Shown here in pieces: positions 5,478 through 43,066 of a DNA stretch of 43,419 nt. Source of the DNA: a virus; the IMG/VR virus record IMGVR_UViG_3300020121_000419, positions 1-43,419 of that record; one strand, written 5' to 3'. Below the pieces are notes generated by a model that saw nothing but the letters and a program-made list of their open reading frames with translations, was not told the DNA's origin and searched no databases. Each line of letters opens with the position of its first letter. Position 1 is the stretch's first letter. Both the position numbers and the translations under genes were made by a program.

Positions 5478-5705
5478 TTAGCTCTCCGGGGCAAGGCTGC
5501 AGTCACAGTCAGGGAATCGGCGCTGGTGGTTGATGAAGATCTTCTGCTTCAGGCTCGCGCGGTCGAAAAACTCCGGGCGCGTGACGAAGCTGTCCGCTGG
5601 CCAGGTCGTGCCGTGAGGGCACTGGACCCAGCCGCGATCACGCACGGGCGTGCTGGCGTCGGAGAACAGCGTCTGTGGCTGTTCCACGAACGTGGCGACA
5701 GACAC
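5478..5705 (-). CDS. Small virion-associated protein with CxHG-HxCxC module
   Basis: 75 aa between tail tube and tail chaperone. The second half carries C29-P-H31-G, then NH60-Q, then DC67-D-C69. The same pattern occurs twice in the gene at 7167-8420 and once in the small gene at 17525-17740. The spacing of Cys and His suggests a bound metal ion or a disulphide-stabilised fold. I do not recognise a named family. Function is unknown; a decoration or accessory virion part is an inference from position. Confidence 0.75.
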   Translation of the reverse strand: MSVATFVEQPQTLFSDASTPVRDRGWVQCPHGTTWPADSFVTRPEFFDRASLKQKIFINHQRRFPDCDCSLAPES

Positions 5706-5710
5706 GCCGG

Positions 5711-6112
5711 CTACAAGGCGTTGGTCATCGAGCCGCGCGCGGTCCAGTTGCCCGTGATGGTGATGGCTGTATCCACTGCCTCACGGATGCTGTAGTCCAC
5801 CCAGGCTGGCCCGCCGAAGTAGCGCGTCATCATCGCGCTGTGCGGATAGAGCGCGATCTGGGTGCCCGAGAGGCTATTGGACGCGGCACGCAGCGTGTTG
5901 TCGTCCGCTGCCCAGAACCCCTCGATGGTGCCGCGAGCGGCAGGAAAGCCAAGCACCTCAGTCTTGTTGAGCGCGCCGAACTCGGTGACGTCGATCTTGT
6001 CGGTCGACAGGTCCAGGGTGAAGGCGCGAAAACCACCCGCGAGCACTGGCGGGGTGACCGCGTCCACGCTCAGATAGACCAGACCGTTTCGACCCGCGTA
6101 TTTGATCGCCAT
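5711..6112 (-). CDS. Major tail (tube) protein
   Basis: 133 aa. ATG at 6112 has AAAGGAG 8 nt upstream, and the preceding gene stops at 6115, so longer readings are rejected. The pattern TDKIDVTEFGALNKTEVLGF, then GTIEGFWAADDNT, LYPHSAMMTRYFGG and ITITGNWTARGS is typical of siphovirus tail tube subunits with the compact beta-sandwich. The position between tail terminator cassette and chaperone fits. It is short but within the family range. Confidence 0.85.
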   Translation of the reverse strand: MAIKYAGRNGLVYLSVDAVTPPVLAGGFRAFTLDLSTDKIDVTEFGALNKTEVLGFPAARGTIEGFWAADDNTLRAASNSLSGTQIALYPHSAMMTRYFGGPAWVDYSIREAVDTAITITGNWTARGSMTNAL

Positions 6113-6114
6113 GG

Positions 6115-7170
6115 CTAGGCTCCTTTGGAGACCGCCCCGATACGTTCGAGGTCGGCCAGGGCTTGTGCCGCGCGTGCGGCGTAGGTGTGGGACACGACCA
6201 GTTCGCGTGCCCGCTCGGCGCAACGAAGGCGCCAGTCGGCGTCGTCGAGGGCTGCCCGCAACAGCGCCTGCAGTTCCTGCGGGCTCGTGAAACCTGGAAC
6301 CGTCGAGCCGAAGATCTCACCGACCTCTGCTCGAGCCTGGCTGATTTGAAAAAGGCCACACGCCGCGAGCTCGAACGTGCGCGGGTTGGCGCTTTCCGCG
6401 CCGGTGCGATGCGGCACGTTGCGCCCGTACGTCGTACTGGTCCTGAACAGGTTCAAGCCGACCTTCGCTTTGCGATACAGCCGCAGCGCCTCGGAGTTCG
6501 GGACGCTCGGACCGCGCACGTAGTCTCGCAACCGCGCGCGCGACCCGAGCAATCCCCACTCGCCGTACAGACCGAGATCGATCCCGGTCCAATTGATCGC
6601 ACTCAGAAGCTCGATACGTTCAATGAAGCCCGTACCGACAAAGACCACGTCGTGGGAGGGGACGGTGGGGTCTAGCTCTTCCTCGGGGCGATGCACCGGC
6701 GGGTAGTAAGCGTGGGGGAGATAGCCGCCACGCAGCGTGCGAGTGCTCGTGCGCTCATTGGTCCAGCACCAATCGACCAGCTGGGCAACCCGAAGCTGCT
6801 GCAGATCCTCGTACGGGCTCTCGGTAAACAGCACCGCGACCTTCAGCCCGGCGCGTTTCATCAGGATCAACGCATCGGGATGCAGATACATCGCCGAGAC
6901 AACAAAGACCCAGTCCACGTCGAAGCGCAGCGCCATCTCCAGCGCTTCAACGCCGGCGCGGTACAGCGTGTCTGCCCAACTCGGGCGGTCGTCAAGCTGC
7001 TTTCCCCGCGCGATCCACTGGTTCATCAGCCAGCGCATCGCCAGCGATAAACGCGCCTCGAGCGCATACAGCCGCAGATCGATGCCCATGCCGCGGAACG
7101 CGGCCGCGTAGCCGTTCTCCACATCGCGTGTGGAGGTCGCAGTCCCGGCACCGACCAGCAACAACTTCAT
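6115..7170 (-). CDS. CgeB-like glycosyltransferase
   Basis: 351 aa from ATG at 7170, which overlaps the previous stop as ATGA. The N-terminus MKLLLVGAGTATSTRDVENG and FDVDWVFVVSAMYLHPDAL fit a Rossmann-type GT-B donor domain. The C-terminal part has SEALRLYRKAKVGLNLFR and NPRTFELAACGLFQIS, the nucleotide-sugar site of CgeB / glycosyl transferases group 1. It should move a sugar from a nucleotide donor; acceptor unknown. It lies directly upstream of the tail tube gene with 2 nt between, so the tube or another tail protein is a plausible acceptor. Confidence 0.82.
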   Translation of the reverse strand: MKLLLVGAGTATSTRDVENGYAAAFRGMGIDLRLYALEARLSLAMRWLMNQWIARGKQLDDRPSWADTLYRAGVEALEMALRFDVDWVFVVSAMYLHPDALILMKRAGLKVAVLFTESPYEDLQQLRVAQLVDWCWTNERTSTRTLRGGYLPHAYYPPVHRPEEELDPTVPSHDVVFVGTGFIERIELLSAINWTGIDLGLYGEWGLLGSRARLRDYVRGPSVPNSEALRLYRKAKVGLNLFRTSTTYGRNVPHRTGAESANPRTFELAACGLFQISQARAEVGEIFGSTVPGFTSPQELQALLRAALDDADWRLRCAERARELVVSHTYAARAAQALADLERIGAVSKGA

Positions 7171-8420
7171 GGCGGCGTAAGCACCGTGACGCTGGTGGCG
7201 TTCAGCGTCGACCCGGCGAGCACGTCCTGATATGCCAGCGCCGAGGAATTCTCGAAGCCGAGGCGCAACGTGAAGCCGGCTGCCAACTGGCCAGACCACG
7301 AGATCCGTCCAACCGCCTGACCGCCTTCTTCGAGAATCGGCGCGCGCGCAAAACTCTGACCCTGGATCAGCAGGTGGACATAGCCCGCCGCGCCCTGCGC
7401 GATGCTGCGTGACAGTGTCAGCCGCGCGCTTATGCCATAGACACCGAGTTGCTGGACCACCAGCCGTGAGCCGTTCCAGCTAAGCCCCGTGCCAGTCACC
7501 ACCGCGCCGTTTTCCGGAACCGGCTGGATCACGCCGCGCGCCACGCTCACCGCGTTACACGTCAGCACGGCTGTCGTGTCGGGTGCCGCGAGGGTATCGC
7601 CACACCCGAACAGGCGTTGATGGTTGCGGTAGGTCTCTGCCTGGACTGCCAGCAGATCTGGCCAGCCAATCGTGCCCTGCCAGACACCCGATTGTGCCCA
7701 GCCATGGGAACAGGTCACTCGTCCGCCGTACAGCTTCGGGTAGCTCGCCCAGATGCTGAAGGTAGCGCTACCTGCCGCCTGGGGTTCGACATCTTCAGCC
7801 GCAGCTTCGACTGGCTCGATCTCTGCCGGCAGCACGTAGCTCGGCGTCCACACGATGTTCAACGCGCAGTCGCAGTCGGGATACAGCGCCTGATGGTTGG
7901 CGAACGCCGGATCAGCCTGCTCCTCGAAGTTGCGATCATCCTGGATCGGCTGGTTGAGCCACACGCCGCTGCGTGTGATGCCATGCGGGCAGACAATGAC
8001 GCTGAACCAGTGCGTGGGATCAGCCGGTTCCATCGTCCAATCGGCCAGCGACTGCTGAGGCGTGAGCGCCAGGGTGAACACCACGTGGCAGGCCTGGTTG
8101 TTGCTGACGTTGGTGCCGCCATTGGCCAGACTTTCGACTGGCACGCTCCACGACAGATCCGCTTCCTGAGCCGCTGCGGCGGTGACGCGCCACACGCGCC
8201 AGTTACCCGGGTTGCCACCTTGCTCGGCGCGAACCGTGTCATCCAGCGCCAGCGCGGCGAAGGTATTGGTTAGATCCTGGCTCTGACTGTCAGCATTGGA
8301 AAAGTAGAGCTCGGTCGCCCCGCTCCAGTTGCGCGAGTCAGACTGGAAGGTGCCAGCCGACACGGGCGCCGTGCCACTACTCCACGTGTACTGCGCAACA
8401 AGTTGCTGCGTGTCGCTCAT
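7167..8420 (-). CDS. Virion surface protein: two CxHG modules and C-terminal jelly-roll
   Basis: 417 aa. ATG at 8420 has GGAGG upstream and overlaps the methyltransferase stop (ATGA). Residues 1-135 are a Thr/Ser-rich beta domain. Module 1 spans C144-PHG to NHQ and DC182-D-C184. Module 2 spans C237-SHG to NHQ and C273, but its last Cys is lost (GCGD). Residues about 290-417 look like a C1q/TNF-type jelly-roll (YGISARLTLSRS ... GYVHLLIQGQSF), a fold often used in phage fibres for trimerisation and glycan binding. It is probably exposed on the virion; this is inference. Confidence 0.7.
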   Translation of the reverse strand: MSDTQQLVAQYTWSSGTAPVSAGTFQSDSRNWSGATELYFSNADSQSQDLTNTFAALALDDTVRAEQGGNPGNWRVWRVTAAAAQEADLSWSVPVESLANGGTNVSNNQACHVVFTLALTPQQSLADWTMEPADPTHWFSVIVCPHGITRSGVWLNQPIQDDRNFEEQADPAFANHQALYPDCDCALNIVWTPSYVLPAEIEPVEAAAEDVEPQAAGSATFSIWASYPKLYGGRVTCSHGWAQSGVWQGTIGWPDLLAVQAETYRNHQRLFGCGDTLAAPDTTAVLTCNAVSVARGVIQPVPENGAVVTGTGLSWNGSRLVVQQLGVYGISARLTLSRSIAQGAAGYVHLLIQGQSFARAPILEEGGQAVGRISWSGQLAAGFTLRLGFENSSALAYQDVLAGSTLNATSVTVLTPP

Positions 8421-8959
8421 GGCTTGCGCGCCTCCAGGCCGCACTGGTACCAGCGCGGGGTGCTCAGACGAGGGTCGCTGAAGCGGTCGATCTCGCCAGT
8501 GACTTCGAAACCGACTCGCTCCAGCGCCCGGCCGAGCGTGGACAGGTCGTAGGCCCAGAGGTGATGACTGGGCTGGCACGTCGAGAACAGGATGAAGTGG
8601 TTCAACTCGTCGAGGTCGGTCAGGTCGTGCACGTGGTACTGCCACTCGAAGGGTGCGTCTGCCTCCATCAGGTAGCGCCGCGCCACCTCGTGGAAGTCGG
8701 GCACGACCACGCCGATCTTCCCGCCGGGCTGCAGCACACGAAAGCACTCGCTCAGCAGCTCGCCAGCCTGCGCAAAACTCAGGTGCTCAAGAAAGTGGCC
8801 ACAGTAGATCTCGTCAGCCGACTTGTCCGGCCAGGGCAATGGCGGAACGCTGATGACCGCGTCCACACCACGGATTGCCGTGGCGTCGACATTCACAAAG
8901 CCGGTCAGCGGATAGTCGCCGCAGCCAAGGTTGAGTTTCAGCGCCGTGCCTACGACCAC
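8417..8959 (-). CDS. SAM-dependent methyltransferase (class I, type 11)
   Basis: 180 aa. Motif I LNLGCGDYPLTGFVNVD (residues 9-25) binds S-adenosylmethionine. HFLEHLSFAQAGELLSECFRVLQPGGKIGVVVPD matches the post-I to motif III region of sugar or small-molecule methyltransferases. There is no DNA-recognition domain. It sits between two glycosyltransferases, so O-methylation of a transferred sugar is the likely role, as in capsule and lipopolysaccharide loci; this is inferred. The start overlaps the previous gene by 10 nt. Confidence 0.83.
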   Translation of the reverse strand: MVVGTALKLNLGCGDYPLTGFVNVDATAIRGVDAVISVPPLPWPDKSADEIYCGHFLEHLSFAQAGELLSECFRVLQPGGKIGVVVPDFHEVARRYLMEADAPFEWQYHVHDLTDLDELNHFILFSTCQPSHHLWAYDLSTLGRALERVGFEVTGEIDRFSDPRLSTPRWYQCGLEARKP

Positions 8960-9570
8960 CAGATATGCTCCTGCTCCGGACGGGCAATGGCGATCTCCTC
9001 GTCACGCCAGCCCACGTCACCACGCGCCAGCTTGGAGGCCTCGACTGCCGCGTCGAAATCACCCTCGTAGCGCAGGCCCCAGGTGACCCGCTGGGCGATG
9101 TCGCGCGGCAGCACGAGGCAGTCGGCGTCGATGTTGGACAGGACCAGCTGTGGTGTACGCCACACCTGCTCGCGCCATGGCGTCAGCACGCGGAAGAACA
9201 GGGGTCGCTTCTTGCGTTCCTGGCACAGCGCCAGCCAGATGGTGTTGACCGCGCCCCTGGCGAGGATGTTGTCGTCCTGACTGAACGCCACCCACTCGCC
9301 CTTGGCCTGTCGCGAGCCAAACGAGCGTTGAGGCTGGCCGTAGCAGTTGACGCCGCCATCGTGCTCCAGCCACTGAACGCCGGTCCTGAGGCCCGCGATC
9401 TCCTCGCGCAACAGGTCAAAGCGAGCGCGGTCGGTCGCACCGTGGACGTCGGCAACGACCAGCACCTCGACATCAAGCTGCTTCTGCTGCTGGATCGACG
9501 CCAGCGTGCGAAACAACTCGGCGTGGCGACGTGCCGAAGTGGGCAGCACAATCGACAACCACGGCATCAT
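8950..9570 (-). CDS. Family 2-like (GT-A) glycosyltransferase
   Basis: 206 aa from ATG at 9570 in an ATGA overlap; a second ATG follows directly. PWLSIVLPTSARRHAELFRTL at residues 3-23 is the family opening, and EWVAFSQDDNILARGAVNTI gives the D-x-D-type metal/UDP site (QDDN). The C-terminal part (YEGDFDAAVEASKLARGDVGW) is shorter than in full GT2 enzymes. It is grouped with the methyltransferase and CgeB-like enzyme as one glycan cassette. Confidence 0.75.
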   Translation of the reverse strand: MMPWLSIVLPTSARRHAELFRTLASIQQQKQLDVEVLVVADVHGATDRARFDLLREEIAGLRTGVQWLEHDGGVNCYGQPQRSFGSRQAKGEWVAFSQDDNILARGAVNTIWLALCQERKKRPLFFRVLTPWREQVWRTPQLVLSNIDADCLVLPRDIAQRVTWGLRYEGDFDAAVEASKLARGDVGWRDEEIAIARPEQEHIWWS

Positions 9571-9992
9571 GCGTGCACCTCGGCGCGCATGCTGGCCGCC
9601 AGGCAACGCAGACCAGCGATGTCGGTCGTGCCATAGGAGCCGCCGCCAGTCAGCCGCAGCCAGTCAACACAGCCACCCAGGCGCATGTCGCGCTCGAGCG
9701 CCTGCTTGATGCTGTTGCGTCCGACCGGCGAGATGTACGGGTTGAGCTGCGCCTGAGCACGCTGCAGCCCGCTCTTCAGGTCGACCAGGATCCAGATGTC
9801 GAAGTGGTACATCGTCGGCACGTCATCACAGGACTCCGGGAACGTCTCGTCGTACGCCCAGTCCACCAGTCGCGGGTACGCGGTCGGGAAATTTGGCTCC
9901 TCGGGCTCGGTGGCGTGTGCGCGCAGGCCGTCGATGCTGCCGAGCGCCTTCTTGATCGCCGCCAGGACCTCGTCCAGTGTCGGGCTGCTCAT
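9567..9992 (-). CDS. Tail terminator / neck protein
   Basis: 141 aa from ATG at 9992 (ATGA overlap); longer readings run through the neighbour. It starts MSSPTLDEVLAAIKKALGSI and ends in ALERDMRLGGCVDWLRLTG, a pattern I associate with tail terminators and minor neck proteins that cap the tube and join it to the head. The place between an HK97-gp10-like gene and the tail tube supports this. Confidence 0.65.
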   Translation of the reverse strand: MSSPTLDEVLAAIKKALGSIDGLRAHATEPEEPNFPTAYPRLVDWAYDETFPESCDDVPTMYHFDIWILVDLKSGLQRAQAQLNPYISPVGRNSIKQALERDMRLGGCVDWLRLTGGGSYGTTDIAGLRCLAASMRAEVHA

Positions 9993-10564
9993 AGCTGCTG
10001 CCCGGCAATGCTGGCCGCGACCTTGCGTCCGATACCCGCGAACAGGCCGAGGATCTCGGGCCGATTCTTGTAGTAGGCCGGCCGCAGGTACGGGTTCGGT
10101 GGGATTCCGCGGCGGCGAATGGCAAACGCCAGCGCGAATGCTCGCCGTCGGATCTGCGCCTCGGTGACGTTGCGCCCCGGGCGACGGCGGTTGTTGATCT
10201 GGCCAGACAACTCGCGTTCGAAGCCGAGCATCACGCGCTGGCGTCCGACCAATGCCGGTCGCCAGTGGCGCTGTACCCACGGAATGAGCGCGTCCACGGG
10301 GGGCATGCGCGCGCCGGCTCGGCGACCGAATTCGACCGGCGCACCGTAGGCCGCGCTCGGGCCGACGTGGCCTTCCTGCACTAGGCCGTCGCCCTCGATG
10401 CGGTGCGTGATGCTGCCCGCCAGTCGCCGCTGGTCGCGCGGTACAAGCTGACGCGCATCCGCTTCGATCAGCAGCAGTGAAGCGCTAAGTGCCTGGCGGA
10501 TCTGGTACGCGGTGAACGTCGGCACCTCGTCCAGACGGCGGATCGCCGTGGCGATATCCGTCAC
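9989..10564 (-). CDS. HK97 gp10-like neck / tail completion protein
   Basis: 191 aa. The start is GTG at 10564 in a GTGA overlap. Residues 33-95 (IEADARQLVPRDQRRLAGSI ... HVGPSAAYGAPVEFGRRAG) match HK97-gp10 proteins, which act at the head-tail junction. The C-terminus is Arg-rich (EAQIRRRAFALAFAIRRRG) and longer than usual. Confidence 0.8.
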   Translation of the reverse strand: MTDIATAIRRLDEVPTFTAYQIRQALSASLLLIEADARQLVPRDQRRLAGSITHRIEGDGLVQEGHVGPSAAYGAPVEFGRRAGARMPPVDALIPWVQRHWRPALVGRQRVMLGFERELSGQINNRRRPGRNVTEAQIRRRAFALAFAIRRRGIPPNPYLRPAYYKNRPEILGLFAGIGRKVAASIAGQQL

Positions 10565-10695
10565 GCTGGTTTCGGTTCGTCCTCCTCGGGCTTCTCGGTT
10601 TGCTCTTCTTCTGGCTCTGGCTCTGGCTGTGGGTCCGGAGGCGGCATCGGCTCTGGGTCCGGATGCGGGTGCGGCGGGGATTCAGGAGTGGTCAT
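10561..10695 (-). CDS. 44-residue Pro/Glu-rich peptide
   Basis: ATG at 10695 with GAAGGGA upstream; the stop overlaps the next start. The peptide is almost only Pro, Glu, Asp and His (MTTPESPPHPHPDPEPM then PEPEPEEEQTEKPEEDEP). It has the tight operon spacing of a real gene in the connector module. It may be a small acidic linker; no family is recognised. Confidence 0.55.
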   Translation of the reverse strand: MTTPESPPHPHPDPEPMPPPDPQPEPEPEEEQTEKPEEDEPKPA

Positions 10696-10705
10696 GGAAT
10701 TCCCT

Positions 10706-11404
10706 TCAAGCAATGACGAACTGGGGGGTCTGACGCTCGCTCATGTACTGCTGCACGATGGCCGCGACGTCGGGATCGGTGCTCTGCAGGTAGCCGAGCT
10801 GGCCCATCTGTGGACCTTCCCAGATGCCAAACGGTGCGCCCGGACGCCGCAGGTAACGATTGCCGAGCATGATGTTGGCCTGCTTGACCGGGCTCGGCGG
10901 CGCGTCATTCGTGGGCCAGCCCCACTTACCGGTGACGCGCACCTGATAGCCGGGCCAGAAGGCATACGGCGCGGTAGACCGCAAGCGGATCTGGGTGTAG
11001 TTGCCCGGAGAGCCACCCGGCAGCCCGACGTTCAGCGGGTACAGCACCCAGCTGTTGCTGGGCAGGCTGGTCGAAAACGAGCCATTGAGCCCCAGGTCAA
11101 GGTCAATAGCGGTCACCTCGCCGACGTCGGGCACGTCCAGGCGGTCAAGTCCGGGATACCAGGCAGCGCCAAAGAACCATGCGAACGGGGGCCCAGCGCT
11201 CACCGGCCACTGCCAGCCTCGCGCGGACGGGTCGTTGTCGAAGATCCGCGCGCTCACGTCCGTGTCCTGAGGCGTAAAGACACGGTTGGTGTACTGCTCG
11301 ATCATCGCCTGGGCAGCGTCCAACGCCAGCTGGATCTGGAGGTCATCGTAGGTGTCGCCCACGCCGATGGCGGCCTTGAACTCATCGATAGTGACGTAAC
11401 TCAT
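10706..11404 (-). CDS. Head-tail connector (gp6-like)
   Basis: 232 aa. MSYVTIDEFKAAIGV and LALDAAQAMIEQYTNRVFTP at the N-terminus match the gp6-like adaptor family that docks below the portal. The middle holds an unusual Trp/Pro-rich insert (residues 63-85, GWQWPVSAGPPFAWFFGAAW). The C-terminus NIMLGNRYLRRPGAPFG closes the typical fold. ATG at 11404 overlaps the upstream stop. Confidence 0.8.
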   Translation of the reverse strand: MSYVTIDEFKAAIGVGDTYDDLQIQLALDAAQAMIEQYTNRVFTPQDTDVSARIFDNDPSARGWQWPVSAGPPFAWFFGAAWYPGLDRLDVPDVGEVTAIDLDLGLNGSFSTSLPSNSWVLYPLNVGLPGGSPGNYTQIRLRSTAPYAFWPGYQVRVTGKWGWPTNDAPPSPVKQANIMLGNRYLRRPGAPFGIWEGPQMGQLGYLQSTDPDVAAIVQQYMSERQTPQFVIA

Positions 11405-11613
11405 ACGCGCTCACGCGTCTGTGCATGCAACTCGGGCGCCTCGAACACGAGCGAGCCATCGTCGGCAACGCGATACAGTCGCCCGACGATGGTGCGTGGC
11501 TCGCGCACGAAGCAGATCGTGCGGCGCGCGGGGACAACCATCTCGACTCCGTCGTCAAAGATCAGACGGACCCCCTCGTGGCCGACCCGATAGCGTGCGC
11601 CGACTTCCACCAT
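11401..11613 (-). CDS. Small beta-rich protein of the connector module
   Basis: 70 aa from ATG at 11613. Alternating hydrophobics (YRVGHEGVRLIFDDGVEMVV) suggest a small SH3-like barrel. It lies between the Gly-rich protein and the gp6-like adaptor with an ATGA overlap. No family recognised; a head-completion role is possible by position. Confidence 0.6.
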   Translation of the reverse strand: MVEVGARYRVGHEGVRLIFDDGVEMVVPARRTICFVREPRTIVGRLYRVADDGSLVFEAPELHAQTRERV

Positions 11614-11619
11614 GCTGTC

Positions 11620-11892
11620 TCAGCGAGGCGGCGAGGCGAGCCCCGAGTCGGTACCCGTCGGGCTCAGGTAGCCCGAGACAATGTTCGAGGCGCTGCTGTC
11701 ACCTCCACCAGCGCCCACCGTGGGCACCACCGGCGGTCCGAGCGGACCGGTGAGCCCGGAGTCCGTGCCGAAGCCACCCTGCGGGTCAGTGGCGCTGGGC
11801 GTTGGCGCAGCCCCACCACGCGGCAGATCTGTTTGCAGGCTCTCGCCAAAGCCGCCCGAGTAGCCGGGCTGCTCGTTGACACCAATGGGCAT
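11620..11892 (-). CDS. Gly/Pro/Ser-rich 90-residue protein
   Basis: ATG at 11892 has a strong GAGGAGG 6 nt upstream. Low-complexity throughout: LPRGGAAPTPSATDPQGG, then TGPLGPPVVPTVGAGGGDS. The motif GTDSGL is repeated (near residues 48 and 82). It follows the major capsid gene directly, where decoration or head-fibre proteins are often encoded. Function unknown. Confidence 0.6.
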   Translation of the reverse strand: MPIGVNEQPGYSGGFGESLQTDLPRGGAAPTPSATDPQGGFGTDSGLTGPLGPPVVPTVGAGGGDSSASNIVSGYLSPTGTDSGLASPPR

Positions 11893-11902
11893 GCTTACCT
11901 CC

Positions 11903-13222
11903 TCACAGGCCAGTGATCTTGGCGAACGCCGAACCACGCCACACGACGAAGGCTGCGCGAAGCTCGGCGAGGATCGACTGCATATTTCGGATGAATTGCT
12001 GATCGATGTAGCCGACGCGGATCGAGCCCTCTTCCCGGTCAAAGAGCATGCAGTCCTGGTCGAAGGCGCCGGTGAGCCCGGTGCCCTGCGGCAGGCCCAG
12101 GGATTGCACAATGGGCAACCCCCACAGCGTGGTGGGCCCGGGCATGCTGGGCTGTCCCATGAGATAGCTCCCAGCGCCTGCGGTCGCGCTTGCGGCGTTC
12201 TCGCGCGCCAGACGAATGGTCTGGTAGTCGAGGGGGTTCAGCGCAATCGCGGTCGGGCGACTGAGACCCGTCACGCGCACGGCGGTCATACCTTTAAAGA
12301 TGGCGTCCTGATCGTTATCGGTTCCGCGGCCAACGATATTGATGGCGGTGTTGTTGAGCAGGCCGAGCAGGTTCTCACCAGTGCCATCACCCGAGATGAT
12401 CTGGCTTTCCAGCGTCAGGTTGAGGCCAGTCATCAGGCGACTGTCGATGATGCCCCGCAGCGCAGGCGCGTCCTGCAGCATGCGGTTCGTGATTGGGATC
12501 CACTGGGCAATGGTGCGGACAGGCGACAGCTGGGTGGCATACGTCAGCGTCATCTCGGGCTTGGCGCCCGAGGTGCCCGTGGTCGCCGTGGCCTGTGGGA
12601 CGGGCGCGGCAGCATTGGTGAACGTTGTCTCTGCCACGTACTGGATCGTGTCGGAGGTGGTGCCCGAGCGTGGGATGAGTTCGAGGATGGTCAGCTCGCG
12701 CGTGAGGATCGGCACGCGCAGACCGGGCATGATGTCCGGGATGACGAAGGCACCACCGTTGCCGCCCGAGCCGGCGTACACCAGCGTCTTGGTGTTGAAA
12801 CCCTCGAGCGGGATGTCGAGCTTGTAATTCAGACCGTTGCCGTTCAGGACACCCGAGCTGACCAGCGCCTTGTACTGGGCGTTGTCGAGGAACTGCTCGC
12901 CCGGTGACTTTGCCCCGCTGACGTCGCGCTCGGTGGTGTCACCCGCGTGGCGCATCTGACCAGCAGCCTGGTTGTAGCGACTGACGTTTCCGAAGATGCG
13001 ATTCTTGCGCTGCTCGCGCTCCTCCAACGGCAGCAGGAACTCTTCCAGCTTGTCGATGGTCTGCAGAATGCTCTTGACCTCGTCGTCGTCCTCTTTGCTG
13101 ATGTCTCCGTCGCCCCATTTCTTTTCGATCTCAGCGGCACGGTCATAGCGGACTTTCGACTCAGCCTGCAGCTGAGCCATGTTCATGCCCCGCATCTGGT
13201 CTACGGTCAGGGTTTCTGCCAT
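11903..13222 (-). CDS. Major capsid protein, HK97 fold
   Basis: 439 aa with GGAGATG upstream of ATG 13222. Residues 1-115 form a charged coiled-coil delta domain (AAEIEKKWGDGD ... ILQTIDKLEEFLLPLEERE) that the protease should remove. The mature part has typical HK97 elements: GGAFVIPDIMPGLRVPILTR, WIPITNRMLQDAPALRGIID, and the P-domain end LRAAFVVWRGSAFAKITGL. It lies 5 nt after the protease gene. Confidence 0.96.
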   Translation of the reverse strand: MAETLTVDQMRGMNMAQLQAESKVRYDRAAEIEKKWGDGDISKEDDDEVKSILQTIDKLEEFLLPLEEREQRKNRIFGNVSRYNQAAGQMRHAGDTTERDVSGAKSPGEQFLDNAQYKALVSSGVLNGNGLNYKLDIPLEGFNTKTLVYAGSGGNGGAFVIPDIMPGLRVPILTRELTILELIPRSGTTSDTIQYVAETTFTNAAAPVPQATATTGTSGAKPEMTLTYATQLSPVRTIAQWIPITNRMLQDAPALRGIIDSRLMTGLNLTLESQIISGDGTGENLLGLLNNTAINIVGRGTDNDQDAIFKGMTAVRVTGLSRPTAIALNPLDYQTIRLARENAASATAGAGSYLMGQPSMPGPTTLWGLPIVQSLGLPQGTGLTGAFDQDCMLFDREEGSIRVGYIDQQFIRNMQSILAELRAAFVVWRGSAFAKITGL

Positions 13223-13226
13223 CAGT

Positions 13227-14033
13227 TCATCTCCCGTTGGCGGAACGCCTGGCGCGCAACAGCGCGAGGCGGTTCAGCATGTGCTTGACTTCTTGTTCGG
13301 CGGGTCGTGTGCGCTGCTCGATCAGGCCGGCAACCAGGTGTTCGAGTTCGGCATAGCACCCGCGCAACTCGATCAGATCGTCCAGCCCAGCGTGCTCTTC
13401 GAAGAACTCGCCAAGCTTCTTGCCCGCGTCGGGCACGTTTGCGTACAGCGCGCGCATGTGGTCGATAGCGTCAGCACGCGAGGCGTGGCAGCCAAAATTG
13501 CGATCACCTGAGCTACCACCAATGACGCAGTACTGGTCCTCGCGCTTTTCGATATGCCAGTCCTTGGAATCGAGGTCCTTGACGGCAGTGACCGTGGCAC
13601 GCGCGTTCATCGGCATGGCCACGACGCTGCACTCGAGCAAGTCGACCTCCTTCAGCAGGCGCACGCCCTTCTCGTCGAGATCGACGTCGGTCGGGATGTA
13701 GCCGATGCTGAACGAGTCCAACGCACCATCGACGAGCAGGGTGTGGATGTCTTTGCCGAGCGTGGTCTGGCTGATAGCGAAGCGCCCGAAGAGCCCTTTT
13801 TCGTCCTCGCGCAACTCAAGCGGCTTGCCAAGCACGCTGTGGCTGTCGTGACCGAACAGGAAGCGCACCGGCGTCCTGGCGCCCAGGCTTTTGGCGAACG
13901 CGCCAGTCTGGACGATGTCGCCGCCAAAGTCTACGTTGCCGAAAGTGCTGACGTAGCCAGCCACTTCCATGCCGCCGTCGGCCGACTTGATCTCGGCGAC
14001 GCGTCGAGGGGCGCTGTACAGAATCTCGCTCAC
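13227..14033 (-). CDS. Prohead protease (HK97 / S78 family)
   Basis: 268 aa from GTG at 14033 with GGGAGG about 12 nt upstream. His in FLFGHDSHSVLG (around residue 61) and Ser in LDSFSIGYIP (around 107) are the catalytic pair, and AMPMNARATV closes the fold. The C-terminal third is an extension (residues 165-268) with WHIEKREDQYCVIGGSSG and a helical tail; the core family is shorter. It should trim the capsid delta domain. Confidence 0.93.
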   Translation of the reverse strand: MSEILYSAPRRVAEIKSADGGMEVAGYVSTFGNVDFGGDIVQTGAFAKSLGARTPVRFLFGHDSHSVLGKPLELREDEKGLFGRFAISQTTLGKDIHTLLVDGALDSFSIGYIPTDVDLDEKGVRLLKEVDLLECSVVAMPMNARATVTAVKDLDSKDWHIEKREDQYCVIGGSSGDRNFGCHASRADAIDHMRALYANVPDAGKKLGEFFEEHAGLDDLIELRGCYAELEHLVAGLIEQRTRPAEQEVKHMLNRLALLRARRSANGR

Positions 14034-14073
14034 ACGATCCCGTGACCTCCCGATGGGGAAAGATCGACGGGAT

Positions 14074-14092
14074 GGGACGGCTGAGCCGTTCC
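14074..14092. terminator. Hairpin between protease and propeller genes
   Basis: GGGACGG (14074-14080) and CCGTTCC (14086-14092) form a 7-bp stem with one G-T pair and a 5-nt loop. It lies in the 87-bp gap upstream of the protease start. No T-run follows on the minus strand, so it may attenuate or stabilise rather than terminate. Confidence 0.35.
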
Positions 14093-14120
14093 TGCGCGCG
14101 CTCAGGCCAAATGTAGCACG

Positions 14121-15488
14121 TTAGCCGACGATCGTCGCCAGGCGTGAAGGCACAGCTTTGATCACCGGCGGCTCGGCGAAGCCGTAGATGCCGTGGGGGT
14201 ACTCAGACGCATACGTTCGATTGTCGGGACCGCCGCTCACGGTATGCCCCTCAGTCCAGTTGGGGTTTAGCACGCCAGGGTTCGCAAGATTCAGCGAGTT
14301 TGTCCAGCTCACGCCACCGTCGAAGGAGAACCAGATGATCTGCGCGTGCCCGGGTAGAGAATCACCCCTGCCGAACATGGCCAGATGGTCAGGCCGCGTG
14401 CGGCTCTGTGACATGGCAATATATATGTCAGGAGCGCCGATACCGCCGCCATTGTTGAGAAAGTTTTGCTCCGGTGGAATCGTCGTTGTCAGCGTCCACG
14501 TGACACCCGCGTCCGTCGAACGGTAGACGTAGAGATTCCCGTGACGGAGACCAGAATCTCCGTAGTCGATGCCGCTCCCAATCATGACAAACGTAGAGCT
14601 ATCGATGGCCAACGCGCCCCACGGGCCAGGACCGTTATAGCCCCCATTACTCGGGTCGTAGTCGGAGCTTTTGATGTCTCGCGGACAGATACTCACCATG
14701 CCACCGCTGGAAACCTTCAAGGCATCACCAGTTGACTGAGACGTAACCAGGGCGAGGCTGTCGTTAACTGGCCAGACCATCAGGGTATTGTTGTTACACG
14801 GAGTGTCGAAGGTGCCTAGAGTCTCCACACTCGAGCCGTCGTAGTTGGAGCGACGGATGACCCAGGTGAACCAGTAGATAGTCGATGTGGGGTAACTAGG
14901 GTCTGGAGTCGTATAGAAGGCAGTTTCTTCGGCCCACCACAACTTGGTGGGACTTATGTTCATCAACCCTATGGCGTATGGTGGGGTGTAGGGGTACGCT
15001 CCAGTCGGGCTGTGCGCCGAAACGACCTTCGTCCACGTGTGGGCGTCGTCTAGCGAGCGATAGATCCCGCCTTCGGCAACCGTACTAGCGTACTGGAGCA
15101 TGAACACGGTGCCATCTGCAGGCGAAAACAGGCTCATAGGGTTCGAGTGGTCGTCCGCAATTCCAGTGACCTGAGCACGACGTGCCCATGTCAGCCCGCC
15201 ATCAGCAGACACCCACACCCGGCCGGTGAGGTCCTGATCGGAGTACGCGTACAGTTTCAAGGAATTGTCAGCAGCGACCGCCATGGTGTTGACGCTGGCA
15301 AGGTGTCCCGGTGATCCTGCAGGGTCACCACTCCAGTAGTGAACGCCGTTCGTGTAATCAAATGCGTCCCAGTCGAAGAAGTAGGTGTCCATTGGCGGAT
15401 TGAAGTGCCACCAACCAGTCGCGACGTCCAGCCCGAAACCGCCCGCGTAGACGTCTGTGGTGTACAGGCGCTCCACATCCGATGGCAC
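14121..15488 (-). CDS. Asp-box (BNR) beta-propeller protein, sialidase-like
   Basis: 455 aa. Four Asp boxes are visible: SADGGLTW (about 94-101), SLDDAHTW (about 145-152), STDAGVTW and SFDGGVSW in the C-terminal third. This is the fold of sialidases and related surface-binding propellers. The Arg triad and the nucleophile Tyr of true sialidases cannot be assigned by eye, so binding rather than cleavage is possible. It lies among head genes, upstream of the protease. Its GC content looks clearly lower than its neighbours', which suggests separate acquisition. Confidence 0.75.
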   Translation of the reverse strand: MPSDVERLYTTDVYAGGFGLDVATGWWHFNPPMDTYFFDWDAFDYTNGVHYWSGDPAGSPGHLASVNTMAVAADNSLKLYAYSDQDLTGRVWVSADGGLTWARRAQVTGIADDHSNPMSLFSPADGTVFMLQYASTVAEGGIYRSLDDAHTWTKVVSAHSPTGAYPYTPPYAIGLMNISPTKLWWAEETAFYTTPDPSYPTSTIYWFTWVIRRSNYDGSSVETLGTFDTPCNNNTLMVWPVNDSLALVTSQSTGDALKVSSGGMVSICPRDIKSSDYDPSNGGYNGPGPWGALAIDSSTFVMIGSGIDYGDSGLRHGNLYVYRSTDAGVTWTLTTTIPPEQNFLNNGGGIGAPDIYIAMSQSRTRPDHLAMFGRGDSLPGHAQIIWFSFDGGVSWTNSLNLANPGVLNPNWTEGHTVSGGPDNRTYASEYPHGIYGFAEPPVIKAVPSRLATIVG

Positions 15489-15490
15489 AG

Positions 15491-15673
15491 CTATGCCTGG
15501 ACGATGGTCACCGCTCTACAGTGGCGGCACTTGATCTCGATGCGCGAGCCGGCCGACAACCTGACCGACGGCAGCGGGCTGCGACAACTGTCGCAGCGGA
15601 CTACGCGCTGAGCAGAATCCGGCTTCGGCGGCTGCGGAACTGCTCGAGGATCGTGGACCATGCGATCAGCCAT
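15491..15673 (-). CDS. Com-like zinc-binding peptide
   Basis: 60 aa. ATG at 15673 is chosen because GGAGA lies upstream; ATG at 15661 is an alternative. C27-x2-C30 and C49-x2-C52 with VRCDSCRSPL ... IEIKCRHCRAVTI match the Com family; Mu Com is a zinc-finger activator of mom translation. The 5' end overlaps the glycosyltransferase by about 70 nt. A Mom-like gene exists in this genome (27500-27967), though not adjacent. Confidence 0.6.
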   Translation of the reverse strand: MADRMVHDPRAVPQPPKPDSAQRVVRCDSCRSPLPSVRLSAGSRIEIKCRHCRAVTIVQA

Positions 15674-16713
15674 TGTTGCCAGCACTTCTCCAGGCTGTGG
15701 TGTTGGGCGATACGGCGCCGCTGGTTACGCCAGAGGGTGGTGCGCAGCTCACGGGATTCGATCAGCCGCGAGAGAGCCGACTCCCACTCGCCGGCGGTCT
15801 CGGCGAGGAGACCGTCCTCACGGTCGGTGATCACCTGACCGTAGAGCGTGGGGCTCGCGACGCTGGGGATGCCCGCGCACGCGTACTCCCATACCTTAAT
15901 AGGCGTCTTGGCGGTATTGAACAACTTGGGCGCGACTGACGCGCAGCCGATGTCGATGTTCAGCAGCGCGCGCGGGTACTCGTCAATCGGCAGCCACGGG
16001 AGCCGCCGGCACCGGTCAGGCGGCACGGCGTCGATCAAAATGTCGGCCATGTGGCCCTGCACGACGAAGGTGACCTCCGGATAGCGCCTGGCGAGGTTGT
16101 GCCACGCCTCGGCGACCGGGGCCAGGTCCTCGTAGTAGCGCGAGCCGCCGGCCCAGCCGATAGTCAGGGGCGGCACGACGCGACGACAGGGCTTGAGCGT
16201 GTAGCGGAACCAGCGCGTGTCGATGGCGTTGGGCACGACCTGGATGGGCTTGTCGGTGTACATGCCGACGATAGTTGCCAGACGCCGCGAGGAGACGGTC
16301 ACGCCATCGCACTGGCTGAGCACGTACAGGCGCGCCTGGCGTTCGGCCTCGAGCCGCTCCAGTCCTTTTTCGCGCTCGAGGTCCTGTGTCTTGTAGCTGC
16401 GCTCGACGATAGCGGGCGAGTACACATCATCGTCGACCTCCACGATAGCGGCCATACCGGCGCGGTGCAGGCCGCGAATGAAACGATCACCGTCGGTCTT
16501 CTCGGTCCAGAACAGGCGCGGCAGGATGACCGCGTCGAAGTAGAAGGGCAGTTTCTCGATGAACCCCGGCAGGTTGTTCTCGGGATCGTCGCGCGCCTTC
16601 CAGTGACAGAAGTAGCCGTGCTTCTGGAGCTCGGCGAAGGGCTGGAACACACGCCAGAGCGTGCAGCCTGAGATATCGCCGACCAGCGCCAGGACGCGCG
16701 GCGCGTCGGTCAC
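15601..16713 (-). CDS. GT4-like glycosyltransferase
   Basis: 370 aa from GTG at 16713 in a GTGA overlap. GT-B fold: an N-terminal domain with AIVEVDDDVYSP, VPNAIDTRWFR at the domain junction, LTIGWAGGSRYYEDL, then the donor-site helix AKTPIKVWEYACAGIPSVAS. It should transfer a sugar from a nucleotide donor. It stands between the Mu-F-like head protein and the capsid module, so a capsid or head-protein acceptor is plausible by analogy with glycosylated mycobacteriophage virions; inference only. Confidence 0.85.
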   Translation of the reverse strand: MTDAPRVLALVGDISGCTLWRVFQPFAELQKHGYFCHWKARDDPENNLPGFIEKLPFYFDAVILPRLFWTEKTDGDRFIRGLHRAGMAAIVEVDDDVYSPAIVERSYKTQDLEREKGLERLEAERQARLYVLSQCDGVTVSSRRLATIVGMYTDKPIQVVPNAIDTRWFRYTLKPCRRVVPPLTIGWAGGSRYYEDLAPVAEAWHNLARRYPEVTFVVQGHMADILIDAVPPDRCRRLPWLPIDEYPRALLNIDIGCASVAPKLFNTAKTPIKVWEYACAGIPSVASPTLYGQVITDREDGLLAETAGEWESALSRLIESRELRTTLWRNQRRRIAQHHSLEKCWQQWLIAWSTILEQFRSRRSRILLSA

Positions 16714-16874
16714 GGTTGTTTCCGTTCGGCGATCAATGCCAGGGACTTGCAGTCCTGCTCCAGGTGTTTGCCCCAGTACTGCAGGTACGCCTCGTCAGAC
16801 TGCTTCAGCCACACGACGAGCTGGCGCAGACACGCGACGGCATCAGCCCACATCGCCGGCGTGGCCGTGCTCAC
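16710..16874 (-). CDS. 54-residue protein of unknown function
   Basis: GTG at 16874 overlaps the upstream stop and its own TGA overlaps the next GTG, so both junctions are coupled. Sequence MSTATPAMWADAVACLRQL then WLKQSDEAYLQYWGKHLEQD is predicted to be two amphipathic helices. No family recognised. Confidence 0.65.
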   Translation of the reverse strand: MSTATPAMWADAVACLRQLVVWLKQSDEAYLQYWGKHLEQDCKSLALIAERKQP

Positions 16875-17512
16875 AGGAGTGCCGGTTGCTCAGCCGGCGC
16901 GGTACGTGGCTGTGGAGGTGGAGGACTGAGAATGCCCTCGCGCAGCACGGGCGTGAGCACGAGCGTGCAATTGGGGTGGTTCAGGTCCGGCGGGTTGGTG
17001 ATGGGCACGATCTTGCCGTCGCGCGTGCAGCACTCGTCGTCCCACTGGCAACCGTCGATGATCTGCAATCGATCCACCAGCCCGCTGGCGAGATAGCGCT
17101 CCACCGCAGAAGCGCGCTGCGCCTCCTGCAACTCGGTACGTGCCACCATCAGTGGTCGGCCGCGCCAGGTCTCGGTGAACAGGCCATTGATGCCCAGAAA
17201 GCCGTCCTGCTCGACGCCGTAGGCCAGCTGGTAGTTGGTATAGCCACGCGCCTGGCCGGTCTGGAGCGTCTGCGCAATCGCCTGGCGCGTGGTCTGGTCG
17301 ATGCGCACGACGCGGCTTGCCGCCGTATGCAGCACACGCCGCGTGGTGTTGTCGTCAACCTGGAAGTTTTCGGGTGACAGATCGAAGTGGGCACCGACCA
17401 GCGCGTTCACGGCGCGCAGCATGAGACGGTAGGCGCGTCCCATGATGTCGAGCAGGCGTGGTTGCTCGGCAGCCGCGTCGTAGTGGGGATGCGACTCCTC
17501 AGGCCGCGTCAT
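16871..17512 (-). CDS. Minor head protein, Mu F / SPP1 gp7-like
   Basis: 213 aa. The C-terminal half has ARTELQEAQRASAVERYLAS, GCQWDDECCTRDGKIVPI and HPNCTLVLTPV, the Cys/His-containing signature of Mu F-like proteins, which bind the portal and may travel with the DNA. It is shorter than SPP1 gp7. It ends in a Pro-rich tail (PPPPQPRTAPAEQ). Confidence 0.8.
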   Translation of the reverse strand: MTRPEESHPHYDAAAEQPRLLDIMGRAYRLMLRAVNALVGAHFDLSPENFQVDDNTTRRVLHTAASRVVRIDQTTRQAIAQTLQTGQARGYTNYQLAYGVEQDGFLGINGLFTETWRGRPLMVARTELQEAQRASAVERYLASGLVDRLQIIDGCQWDDECCTRDGKIVPITNPPDLNHPNCTLVLTPVLREGILSPPPPQPRTAPAEQPALL

Positions 17513-17524
17513 GCGGCTGCGACT

Positions 17525-17740
17525 TCATGTCAGCGTGCAGTTGCACTGCGTCACGCGCACGTGCTGGTTGAACGAGTCCGTTTTCAAATTCGCCGCGTTG
17601 GCGTAGCTCGGGTTAGCCAGGTACTGGACGAAGCTGGTGTGGCCGTGGATGCACGAGGTGTCTGACTCGACGGTGTGGGCCGAGTTCTTGTTCTTCTGCG
17701 CGTTGTTCGCGTTGGACTGGGTCTCGGGTTTTTCGGACAT
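17525..17740 (-). CDS. Small portal-adjacent protein with CxHG-HxCxC module
   Basis: 71 aa. An Asn/Lys/Ser-rich N-terminus (residues 1-25) precedes C30-I-H32-G, QH60 and C66-N-C68. This is the same pattern as in the proteins at 5478-5705 and 7167-8420. It is encoded between portal and Mu-F-like gene. Its lower GC and Asn-rich start differ from the flanks. Function unknown. Confidence 0.7.
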   Translation of the reverse strand: MSEKPETQSNANNAQKNKNSAHTVESDTSCIHGHTSFVQYLANPSYANAANLKTDSFNQHVRVTQCNCTLT

Positions 17741-19978: not shown

Positions 19979-20764
19979 ATGGCTCAGCAAGTTTACACAC
20001 GTGGTCTATTCACTGACCATGCGCACCCGGTGCTCAAAGATGGTCAGCTAAAGATGGCAAAGCACATTGTCAAGGCGTACGTGCCTGGCACGGAATGGAT
20101 CGATGCACGCGGCAAGCAACATGGCGTGTTGCTCCTCTCGGATGCATCGAAAATGCCATCGCTCAGCTTTAGCCTCCCGGCCGGCGAATCGTGCCCGTGG
20201 GCACTCTATGGCGAGGGTTCTATCTGTGGTGAGTGCTACGCACAAAAGGGCCGTTACATCATGCCCAACGTCGCGAACGCACAACGCGTTCGCTTCGCGT
20301 GGGTACGCCAGTGTCTGAAAACTGAGGAGGGTACGGATTCTTTCGTCTGGACACTGACGAGCGCGATTCGCGACGCTGGCAACCTTTACTTTCGTGGTCA
20401 CGACTCCGGCGATTTTTTCTCGCCAGCCTACGTTCGCGCGTGGATCCGTGTCTGTCGCGCGTTGCCGCAGGTCTCATTCTGGTTCCCCACGCGCACGTGG
20501 CGCGCGCTCGTCAAGGCTAAAGGTGTCGCGCGCGAGCAATGGGCGCTCGCGCTCAGTGAACTAGCTAGCCTCCCTAACGTGCGCCTCCGGCCGTCAGCGC
20601 TGTTTTTCAACGCTCCGGCTCCTCGCATTCCCGGCTGGGCCGGTGGCACCACGGCGCGAGACGAGGGTTTCAATTGCCCCGCCGCCACGACCGGGAATAT
20701 CTGCGGCACGTGTCGCGTGTGCTGGGATTCACCGGAGACCGAAGTTAGCTACCACCGACACTAA
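19979..20764 (+). CDS. GP88-family phage protein
   Basis: 261 aa. Signature SKMPSLSFSLPAGESCPWA, then ICGECYAQKGRY, RGHDSGDFFSPAYVRAWIRV, FWFPTRTWR, RPSALFFNAP and C-terminal NICGTCRVCWDS. These Cys clusters and the RGHDSGD block are those of the 'gene product 88' family first named in mycobacteriophages. The biochemical role of the family is not known to me; Cys pairs suggest metal or an iron-sulphur cluster. First gene of the plus-strand block, driven by P1. Confidence 0.9.
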   Translation: MAQQVYTRGLFTDHAHPVLKDGQLKMAKHIVKAYVPGTEWIDARGKQHGVLLLSDASKMPSLSFSLPAGESCPWALYGEGSICGECYAQKGRYIMPNVANAQRVRFAWVRQCLKTEEGTDSFVWTLTSAIRDAGNLYFRGHDSGDFFSPAYVRAWIRVCRALPQVSFWFPTRTWRALVKAKGVAREQWALALSELASLPNVRLRPSALFFNAPAPRIPGWAGGTTARDEGFNCPAATTGNICGTCRVCWDSPETEVSYHRH

Positions 20765-34413: not shown

Positions 34414-34854
34414 CTACCTCAACCCGAGACGCCGGCTGCACGCCGGCCAGGGTTGGAAGCCGCGCGCAGCGCGCACCTTCTCGGCGATAGCGATTTGCTG
34501 CTCACGGCTGGCGTAGTCGGCTCGCGCTGCGTACACGGTGCCGCCGTACGCCAGCCATGTCTGGCGATCGAACTGCAACCCGCCGAAGTAGCCGTTGCCG
34601 GTGGCGATGTGCCAATTCGACATCGACTCACAACTGGCGAGCCGATCCCAGACACCGTAGGACTGCTGGGCGACAGAGCTCCCCACCGTCGGGTCCGGTA
34701 CAGCACTGGAGACCGAAGGAACTGGCTCCGGGCTGCTTCCGTCCACACCCGTCAGGTCGGCTCTGACGCCCATGTCACCTTCGTCCTGGGCGTGAATGCC
34801 CAGTGCCGCGCCGCCGACGACTCCGAGGAGAACGCCAACAGCCAGCAGCGTCAC
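34414..34854 (-). CDS. Rpf-like (transglycosylase-like) lysin
   Basis: 146 aa from GTG 34854 (GTGA overlap). Membrane anchor or signal TLLAVGVLLGVVGGAALGIH (2-21), Ser/Pro linker, then the Rpf domain: WDRLASCESMSNW with catalytic Glu76, GYFGGLQFDRQTWLAYGG, QIAIAEKVRAARGFQPWPAC. Rpf enzymes cleave peptidoglycan glycan strands, mainly in actinobacteria. A lysis or cell-wall-penetration enzyme. Confidence 0.88.
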   Translation of the reverse strand: MTLLAVGVLLGVVGGAALGIHAQDEGDMGVRADLTGVDGSSPEPVPSVSSAVPDPTVGSSVAQQSYGVWDRLASCESMSNWHIATGNGYFGGLQFDRQTWLAYGGTVYAARADYASREQQIAIAEKVRAARGFQPWPACSRRLGLR

Positions 34855-35075
34855 TTTGACCGCCACTGGTCCTGGATCCCCAGCCACACCTCGAGCGGTG
34901 TGAGCTCGTGGTGCGGGCAGGCGTAGTACCGCTCCCTGGCCACGGCGTAGCGCTCCTCGTCGGGCCCGGGCATCGCATCCATTTCGGCAGCCACGTGGGC
35001 GCAGCAGCACCCGTGGCGATCGGCGTATTCGGGATCTACGGTGGGCATGGCAAAGCCAGGGTTGGTCTCAGGCAT
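34851..35075 (-). CDS. 74-residue Cys/His protein
   Basis: ATG 35075. ADRHGCCCAHVAAEMDAM and YYACPHHELTPLEVW: a cluster CCC-x-H ... C-x-HH suggests metal binding. Stop overlaps lysin start. No family recognised. Confidence 0.6.
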   Translation of the reverse strand: MPETNPGFAMPTVDPEYADRHGCCCAHVAAEMDAMPGPDEERYAVARERYYACPHHELTPLEVWLGIQDQWRSK

Positions 35076-41375: not shown

Positions 41376-41696
41376 TTACTGAGGGCACTCGATCAACAGG
41401 TACGGCGCCCAGACTTTGTTGGGTGCCACCTCGAACTGAATCACCAGACGGTAGCGCTTGCGGGGCAGCAGCGAGGTCACCGTCGCGGTCAGGTCGGCAG
41501 CGGCGACCGCCACCGGGCCAAGCAGCCCGACGGCGCTGTAGTCCTGGCCCGTATCGATCTGGGTCAGCGTCGCCTGAGCCCAGAGCACGCTCTCGCCTGG
41601 CAGCAGCACTGGCGTCGCGTCGAAGGTGAGTGGCAGCGTCTCCAGGCTGCCCATCTCGAAGGGGTTGGGTGAAACGTTCAGGTCCGCGCAACTCAT
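41376..41696 (-). CDS. 106-residue beta-sandwich protein
   Basis: ATG 41696 (TGATG overlap). ETLPLTFDATPVLLPGESVL, DLTATVTSLLPRKRYRLVIQ: an Ig-like/fibronectin-like pattern. I recall such proteins between phage fibre genes. Virion accessory by context. Confidence 0.6.
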   Translation of the reverse strand: MSCADLNVSPNPFEMGSLETLPLTFDATPVLLPGESVLWAQATLTQIDTGQDYSAVGLLGPVAVAAADLTATVTSLLPRKRYRLVIQFEVAPNKVWAPYLLIECPQ

Positions 41697-43066
41697 CAGC
41701 GCTCCTCCACGGTGAAGCGGACGCCACGACGCCCGACGGAAAACTGAGACTCGCGATGGCCAATGACGAAGTTTCCATCACGCACCGACACGACGAAAGT
41801 CTTCGAGGTCTTGCCGGCACCGGCGCTCGCGAGTGCGACCTGCTGCCCCAGCGTGGTGGTCAGGATGATGAACAGCCGTGGCGTGACGTTGTTGGCGACG
41901 ATGCTCACGGCCGTGGGCTGGACCAGCTGGCGCGTGAGCGAGATCGCCTGCTGTCGCCCCAGCAACTCCTGGACAACCACGCTCGGCGCGAGACGGAGCA
42001 CGCGCGGCAATGTGGCGGCGGTGCGCTGGAAGGTGCTCAGCGTGAGCCTGACGAACTGACCCAGTGCCAGGCTGCGCGCCTGGACGGTGCTGACGATGGT
42101 CAGCTTGACCGGCAGCCCGACGATACGCGCGCTGCTGGCCTGCGTGACGGTGCGCGTGAGGCGAACCTGCCGCACCAGACGTGGGCTCGTCGCTTCGGTC
42201 GTGCTGCGCACACGGCCGAGCACCAGCGGACCGAGGCGGACTTGCTGTGCCTGCAGGAAGGGCTTGGGCTTGGTGGTCAGGCTGACGGTGATGCGGAACA
42301 GGCGCGGGATTCGAAGCGCGATGACCGACTGCGTCGTGCTGAGCGTGCGCTGGTAGCCGTGGCCAATGCTGCCGACGACGGACTGGGCCACTGTCGCCAG
42401 CCGCGCGAGCTCTGCGGCTCGCGCGAGCCTGACAGTTTGCGTCTGGGTGACGGCCAGCGTGCGCGAGGATCCGCCAAGGAGCCCGATGATGCTGGACTGC
42501 GTCACGGTGCGCCGCAAGCTGACCGCACGCCGCAGCGCGAGGCTCTGGCTCAGCGTGGCACTGACGATGCGAGTGTTGATGCGACCGGCAGTCAGCGCAA
42601 GCGCCTGGCTCTGAGTGACCGCGCGGACCAGGCTTCGTGTCATGCGCAACGCACCAACTTGTGCCTGCGTCGTGACGAGCGTGCGCGGTATCGCTCGTAT
42701 CAGGCTGACCGCCTGTGCCTGCGTCAGTGCGAGGAGCGTGCCGACAAATGTGTTGAACCGCAGTGAAACACTGACAGTCTGTGTCGCGGTAACGGTAAGC
42801 GAATACGTCGTCCCCGAAACGAAGAACCACTTCTGTGCAGTAACTCGCGCTCGCGCGGGAATCCAGGATGGCACCAGAGGCGGTGCAGGCACATACACGG
42901 TCTGCAGGCTGACCGTCTGAGATTGCGTCGTCGAGACGATGACCGACGGAATCGGCTTCAGGTCGATCGTGACGCCCAGCCCACCGATCTGGCGGTTGAG
43001 CGTGATACCCGGCCGTCGATCGAGGTCGACGGTAACCCCGACGCTGCCGGTTTGGCGATCGGTCAT
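41696..43066 (-). CDS. 456-residue Arg-rich tandem-repeat virion protein
   Basis: After residue 130 the chain is built of about 20-25-residue units of the type 'R-T-L/V-x-x-T-Q-x-Q-x-V-x-L-x-R' (AVTQSQALALTAGR, TLAVTQTQTVRLARA, TVTQASSARIVGL, and more). Aromatics and acidic residues are nearly absent, Arg and Thr dominate. The N-terminus has a GVTVDLDRRPGI / GVTIDLKPIPSV duplication and the end is a small beta domain (FSVGRRGVRFTVEER). Fibrous beta structure is likely. No named family. Confidence 0.7.
   Translation of the reverse strand: MTDRQTGSVGVTVDLDRRPGITLNRQIGGLGVTIDLKPIPSVIVSTTQSQTVSLQTVYVPAPPLVPSWIPARARVTAQKWFFVSGTTYSLTVTATQTVSVSLRFNTFVGTLLALTQAQAVSLIRAIPRTLVTTQAQVGALRMTRSLVRAVTQSQALALTAGRINTRIVSATLSQSLALRRAVSLRRTVTQSSIIGLLGGSSRTLAVTQTQTVRLARAAELARLATVAQSVVGSIGHGYQRTLSTTQSVIALRIPRLFRITVSLTTKPKPFLQAQQVRLGPLVLGRVRSTTEATSPRLVRQVRLTRTVTQASSARIVGLPVKLTIVSTVQARSLALGQFVRLTLSTFQRTAATLPRVLRLAPSVVVQELLGRQQAISLTRQLVQPTAVSIVANNVTPRLFIILTTTLGQQVALASAGAGKTSKTFVVSVRDGNFVIGHRESQFSVGRRGVRFTVEER

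Follow-up and report, generated by a model that had tools for sequence, protein, structure and literature searches.

The window, a 43,419-nucleotide stretch of viral DNA, carries four copies of a short Cys/His module in three minus-strand genes near genes for the tail tube, tail assembly chaperone and portal. Two of the three encode small proteins with a single module (P75 and P71) and the third, a larger protein with two modules and a jelly-roll domain (J), lies among genes for glycosyltransferases and a methyltransferase. The features are as follows.

5478-5705, minus strand: P75, 75 residues, a single module, between the tail tube and tail assembly chaperone genes
5499-5621, minus strand: module core of P75, C29 to C69, from the residue pattern
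5711-6112, minus strand: tail tube (major tail) protein, between GTa and P75 (PHROG 10528, E 0.0016; homologue alignment)
6115-7170, minus strand: glycosyltransferase GTa, just after J (Pfam PF13524, E 4.8e-21; conserved in the cassette)
7167-8420, minus strand: J, 417 residues, with an N-terminal beta domain, module 1, a linker, module 2 and a TNF/C1q-like jelly roll
7596-7712, minus strand: J module 2, C237 to D275 (Asp at the last candidate ligand position, where L190 and L191 have His)
7866-7991, minus strand: J module 1, C144 to C185, from the pattern and alignment
8417-8959, minus strand: methyltransferase just before J, its end overlapped by the start of J (Pfam Methyltransf_25/11; conserved in the cassette)
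8950-9570, minus strand: glycosyltransferase GTb, of type GT2 (Pfam PF00535; conserved in the cassette)
15601-16713, minus strand: third glycosyltransferase, GTc, near P71 and the MuF-like gene (Pfam PF13524, PHROG 7162; kept in relatives)
17525-17740, minus strand: P71, 71 residues, a single module, between the portal and MuF-like protein genes
17537-17653, minus strand: module core of P71, C30 to C68, from the residue pattern

An earlier, sequence-only reading of this DNA described the module, and all four copies are present with the Cys and His spacing that it gave. The residues are C29, H31, H60, C67 and C69 in P75, and C30, H32, H60, C66 and C68 in P71. J module 1 has C144, H146, H176 and C183 as described, with its last Cys at position 185 rather than 184, and J module 2 (C237, H239, H267 and C273, then D275) indeed lacks the last Cys. 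The distance from the first Cys to the second His is 31 residues in P75, 32 in J module 1 and 30 in both J module 2 and P71, matching the claimed 30-32. Translating the window in all six frames turns up the pattern at these places only, and of 200,000 shuffles that preserve the composition of P75 or P71 none carries it.

The same reading held the sequence between the motif residues to be unrelated, a claim that alignment overturns. Whole-module alignments outscore shuffles in five of six pairs (P75-J1, z 11.6; P75-P71, z 8.1; J1-J2, z 6.0; J2-P71, z 5.9; P75-J2, z 5.0), the remaining pair, J1-P71, being weak (z 2.3; 26 of 1000 in the shuffle test). The copies are therefore homologous along their length, beyond being patterned alike, and the alignments show, at the level of sequence, one homologous mini-domain of about 45-60 residues. 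When the motif letters are deleted, P75-P71 is the only pair still clearly alignable (z 3.8; 4 of 1000).

Relatives of the module occur in other phages. We gathered 80 related loci by a capsid-protein alignment search, and scans with SP2 (a more remote relative, below), tail-tube and methyltransferase alignments add L172-L178, L184, L190, L191, L204, L207 and L209. Searching with a profile of the four window copies, which had been set beforehand as a refutation test, finds further copies, within the same phage lineage only: a P75 orthologue in L090 (E 2e-22; L090:7292-7519, 75% identical), and two J relatives, one in L090 that lacks the jelly roll (4.6e-8) and one in L093 that has it along with a single module (2.7e-6). 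J relatives are known from L090, L093, L190 and L191. A P75 gene after the tail tube is confined to the window lineage and L090, and P71 is found only in the window phage and near-identical contigs (L004, L005 and L031). Besides the window record, the module is present in about 19 contigs, all of one phage lineage. Substitutions are in excess at third codon positions both between P75 and its L090 orthologue (12, 14 and 24 at the first, second and third positions) and between SP2 of L097 and L095 (4, 5 and 26), indicating that these genes are translated.

SP2, a protein of 73-84 residues, came to light in a less strict search for C-x-H...C-x-C, as a 78-residue protein in L093, L095, L097 and L098. 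In sequence-only profile searches without SP2 seeds, its best match, with an E-value of 0.049 (HMM), falls just short of significance and the rest are worse, whereas the P75, P71 and J copies match significantly. Profile-profile comparison recovers SP2 at P 7e-4, and at 2e-4 with more copies, and column-shuffled profiles do as well in 0 of 200 and 0 of 500 trials. SP2 also shares the gene position of J, and copy 2 of the L190 J relative (CQHGWFQSGIHQ) is an apparent bridge between the J and SP2 types. SP2 is thus likely to belong to the module family.

Outside these loci the searches came back nearly empty. The sequence-only reading knew of no named family, and Pfam and PHROGs likewise hold no match above the curated or usual cut-off for P75, P71, J, SP2 or the J relatives. 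Direct searches of PDB sequences and 50,697 phage records found no module copy, and single-protein scans of viral contigs returned nothing beyond contigs nearly identical to the window. A pattern scan of viral contigs gave, outside the contig of the window itself, just two in-frame, chance-like matches. The pattern scan of 84,980 genomes required CPHG and NH, a form that divergent copies would escape, and gave 49 matches, five of them with an open frame through the pattern and all five short, unrelated frames. The stretches retrieved from the related phages ctLpZ231, Mwe-Yong1, Aussie and Aoka have no module copy. The module is a real, unnamed domain family whose known members all come from a single lineage of uncultured phages. 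A capsid-protein search for the host in about 1600 genomes of four phyla reached identities of just 32-42%; an Rpf-type transglycosylase-like domain in the window (34414-35010, minus strand; PF06737, E 1.9e-29) suggests an actinobacterial host.

Conservation across 18 non-redundant copies points to two pairs of candidate ligands. No copy departs from C-x-H or from the first Cys of the last pair (18 of 18), and C-x-H together with C-x-[CHD] fall at alignable positions in every copy. The last position is Cys in 15 copies, His in two (L090 J and L190 copy 2) and Asp in one (window J copy 2). At the position of the second His, proposed earlier as a signature residue, nine copies have His and the other nine, which are all the SP2 copies, have Tyr. 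This His was dropped as a defining ligand; the nine SP2 copies have another invariant His following the C-x-H turn. The pairs C-x-H and C-x-[CHD] are the likely ligands, the second His being optional, and the metal predicted from these residues is probably zinc.

The module had been proposed to be either metal-binding or disulphide-bonded, and the variation at the last position narrows this choice. A metal site is favored over a disulphide because Cys is exchanged for His and for Asp at the last position with the rest of the site kept, an argument built on few events (terminal His in 2 of 18 copies and Asp in 1 of 18). Cys pairs in short, possibly virion-exposed proteins, and the redox activity that C-x-C can have, would suit a disulphide-stabilised or redox domain. 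We consider such a domain very unlikely, given also that the motif includes an invariant His, that by eye the module proteins carry no secretion signal, and that virions assemble in the reducing cytoplasm.

A predicted structure places these residues along the fold. An AlphaFold2 model of P75 made from seven sequences (pLDDT 80.7, pTM 0.65) is a fair beta-beta-beta-alpha fold with strands at 3-12, 21-29 and 37-41 and a helix at 49-63; C29 is at the end of strand 2, H31 in the turn, H60 in the helix, and C67 and C69 right after it. In a J model made from three sequences the module region is poor (pLDDT 23-36), with strands and helix in the same order as in P75. Following the P75 model only, at fair confidence, the module would run from two strands through the C-x-H turn to a third strand, a helix bearing the second His, and C-x-[C/H/D]. 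The two pairs would clamp one metal ion, most likely zinc, which would tie the strand turn to the helix end. Fold searches with the P75 model (Foldseek and VIA, against PDB and viral structures) gave no confident relative; RNase H-like and dsRNA-binding-like entries were weak and were dropped as a common arrangement.

Like zinc ribbons and treble clefs, the module is short, occurs singly or in tandem, has two candidate ligand pairs with one in a turn after a strand, and exchanges Cys, His and Asp at a candidate ligand position. It differs in the one-residue spacing of both pairs (C-x-H and C-x-C) and, in the P75 model, in having the second pair after rather than before the helix. It also stands apart from small zinc-binding domains in having no Pfam or PDB sequence match and no confident structural match. 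The module represents a new family of a familiar kind, that of small domains probably held together by a metal. Its reuse is unusual and its gene neighborhood informative.

Small Cys/His proteins of phage operons are often regulators, and the same operon encodes a small Cys-rich protein like the translational regulator Com of phage Mu, a zinc-ribbon protein (PHROG 6417; 15491-15685, minus strand) located between a glycosyltransferase and a BNR-repeat-like protein and present also in L092, L096 and L097. The module could by analogy be a small nucleic-acid-binding or regulatory zinc finger encoded in a structural operon by happenstance. This is improbable, as two copies in J are fused to beta-sandwich and jelly-roll domains and no zinc-finger family was matched; the Com-like protein itself has another Cys pattern and is unrelated to the module.

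The earlier description of J as a jelly-roll protein agrees with structural matches of its C-terminal domain, for which model confidence is moderate. This domain has 22 matches at E <0.001, nearly all to TNF-family ligands, followed by C1q-like and BclA chains (E 1e-3 to 2e-3). Relative to TNF/C1q-like trimeric jelly rolls such as the BclA C-terminal domain and C1q-like proteins, J is extended by two modules and an N-terminal beta domain, and its relatives lose either end.

Gene order around J is shared between the window and its relatives: tail terminator, GT2, methyltransferase, a variable slot, glycosyltransferase, tail tube and tail chaperone. The slot holds J in the window, L090, L190 and L191, both J and SP2 in L093, and SP2 alone in most other loci; in L100, L192, L185/L205 and L210-L213 it has no module gene. 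In 18 loci J or SP2 is exactly between the methyltransferase and GTa with an overlapping start. The cassette (window 6115-9570) and the third glycosyltransferase (15601-16713) are also seen across L090-L100, L172-L186 and L190-L213. A short Pro/Ser-rich protein ending APTDPSVRVSGPxLTDPSKRVSGG follows SP2 in L095 (5616-5768), L097 and L098, is present in L178 (6174-6458), and is the sole slot occupant in L185 (5289-5525). Antisense HNH-endonuclease-like genes, recognized by eye, are beside the module slot or right after the tail tube (L093:5892-6413, L097:9009-9530 and L190:3313-3921), suggesting that the region attracts insertions.

Glycosyltransferases and a methyltransferase adjoining structural genes resemble virion glycosylation cassettes, and by this analogy the cassette probably glycosylates the virion. 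Passages in PMC11600133 and PMC11256854 describe comparable enzyme sets that modify the capsid and tail tube in some mycobacteriophages. The actinobacteriophage cassettes of Corndog and Che8 likewise combine glycosyltransferases with a methyltransferase, and capsid and tail tube are modified there according to passages in PMC11600133, PMC11256854 and PMC13313380 that draw on Freeman et al. 2023. The window cassette differs in that it is embedded in the structural operon, immediately ahead of the tail tube gene, and carries a module gene.

We suggest, with a probability of about 0.5, that the module is a zinc-stabilised building or docking block in proteins of the virion surface or of virion assembly, which are produced alongside a probable virion-glycosylation cassette. 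The block would stand alone in P75, P71 and SP2 and, in J, would be fused between a beta-rich domain and the TNF/C1q-like jelly roll. The module proteins would be surface or assembly components co-produced with the two glycosyltransferases and the methyltransferase, and their location on the virion is plausible. Counting against this reading, the cassette does not need the module, as the empty slots indicate, and P75 and P71 are encoded outside it; the same observations make it less likely that every module serves the cassette.

The precise and overlapping position of J or SP2 between methyltransferase and GTa, along with a third glycosyltransferase near P71, could also mean that the module proteins are not structural parts of the virion and instead act with the glycosylation enzymes as accessory subunits, adaptors or acceptors, bringing, for instance, GTa, GTb or the methyltransferase to tail or capsid subunits. 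This is unlikely, because several relatives have the enzymes and no module, P75 and P71 sit elsewhere, and J has a TNF/C1q-like domain typical of exposed trimers. A further reading, quite unlikely, sees in the module a new type of acceptor or docking domain, stabilised by metal and recognized by the flanking enzymes, that serves virion glycosylation encoded by the phage. Its copies in P75, P71, J and SP2 would have been spread by these phages so that the tail tube, the portal region and a surface trimer receive glycans or decoration.

If, following the building-block reading, module proteins are on virions, one metal-stabilised mini-domain would be reused in an unusual manner beside the tail tube, the portal and a surface protein. 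The analysis delineates a domain family that has no name so far and for which a metal site is clearly predicted, and it connects small uncharacterised genes with what is probably a virion-glycosylation cassette of one uncultured phage lineage. Two other genes of the window merit mention. A GP88 family protein (19979-20764, plus strand; PF17338, E 8.7e-28) adjoins the structural operon on the opposite strand, and a repetitive protein of 456 residues (41696-43066, minus strand), with no Pfam match, is rich in T-Q-[ST]-Q motifs.
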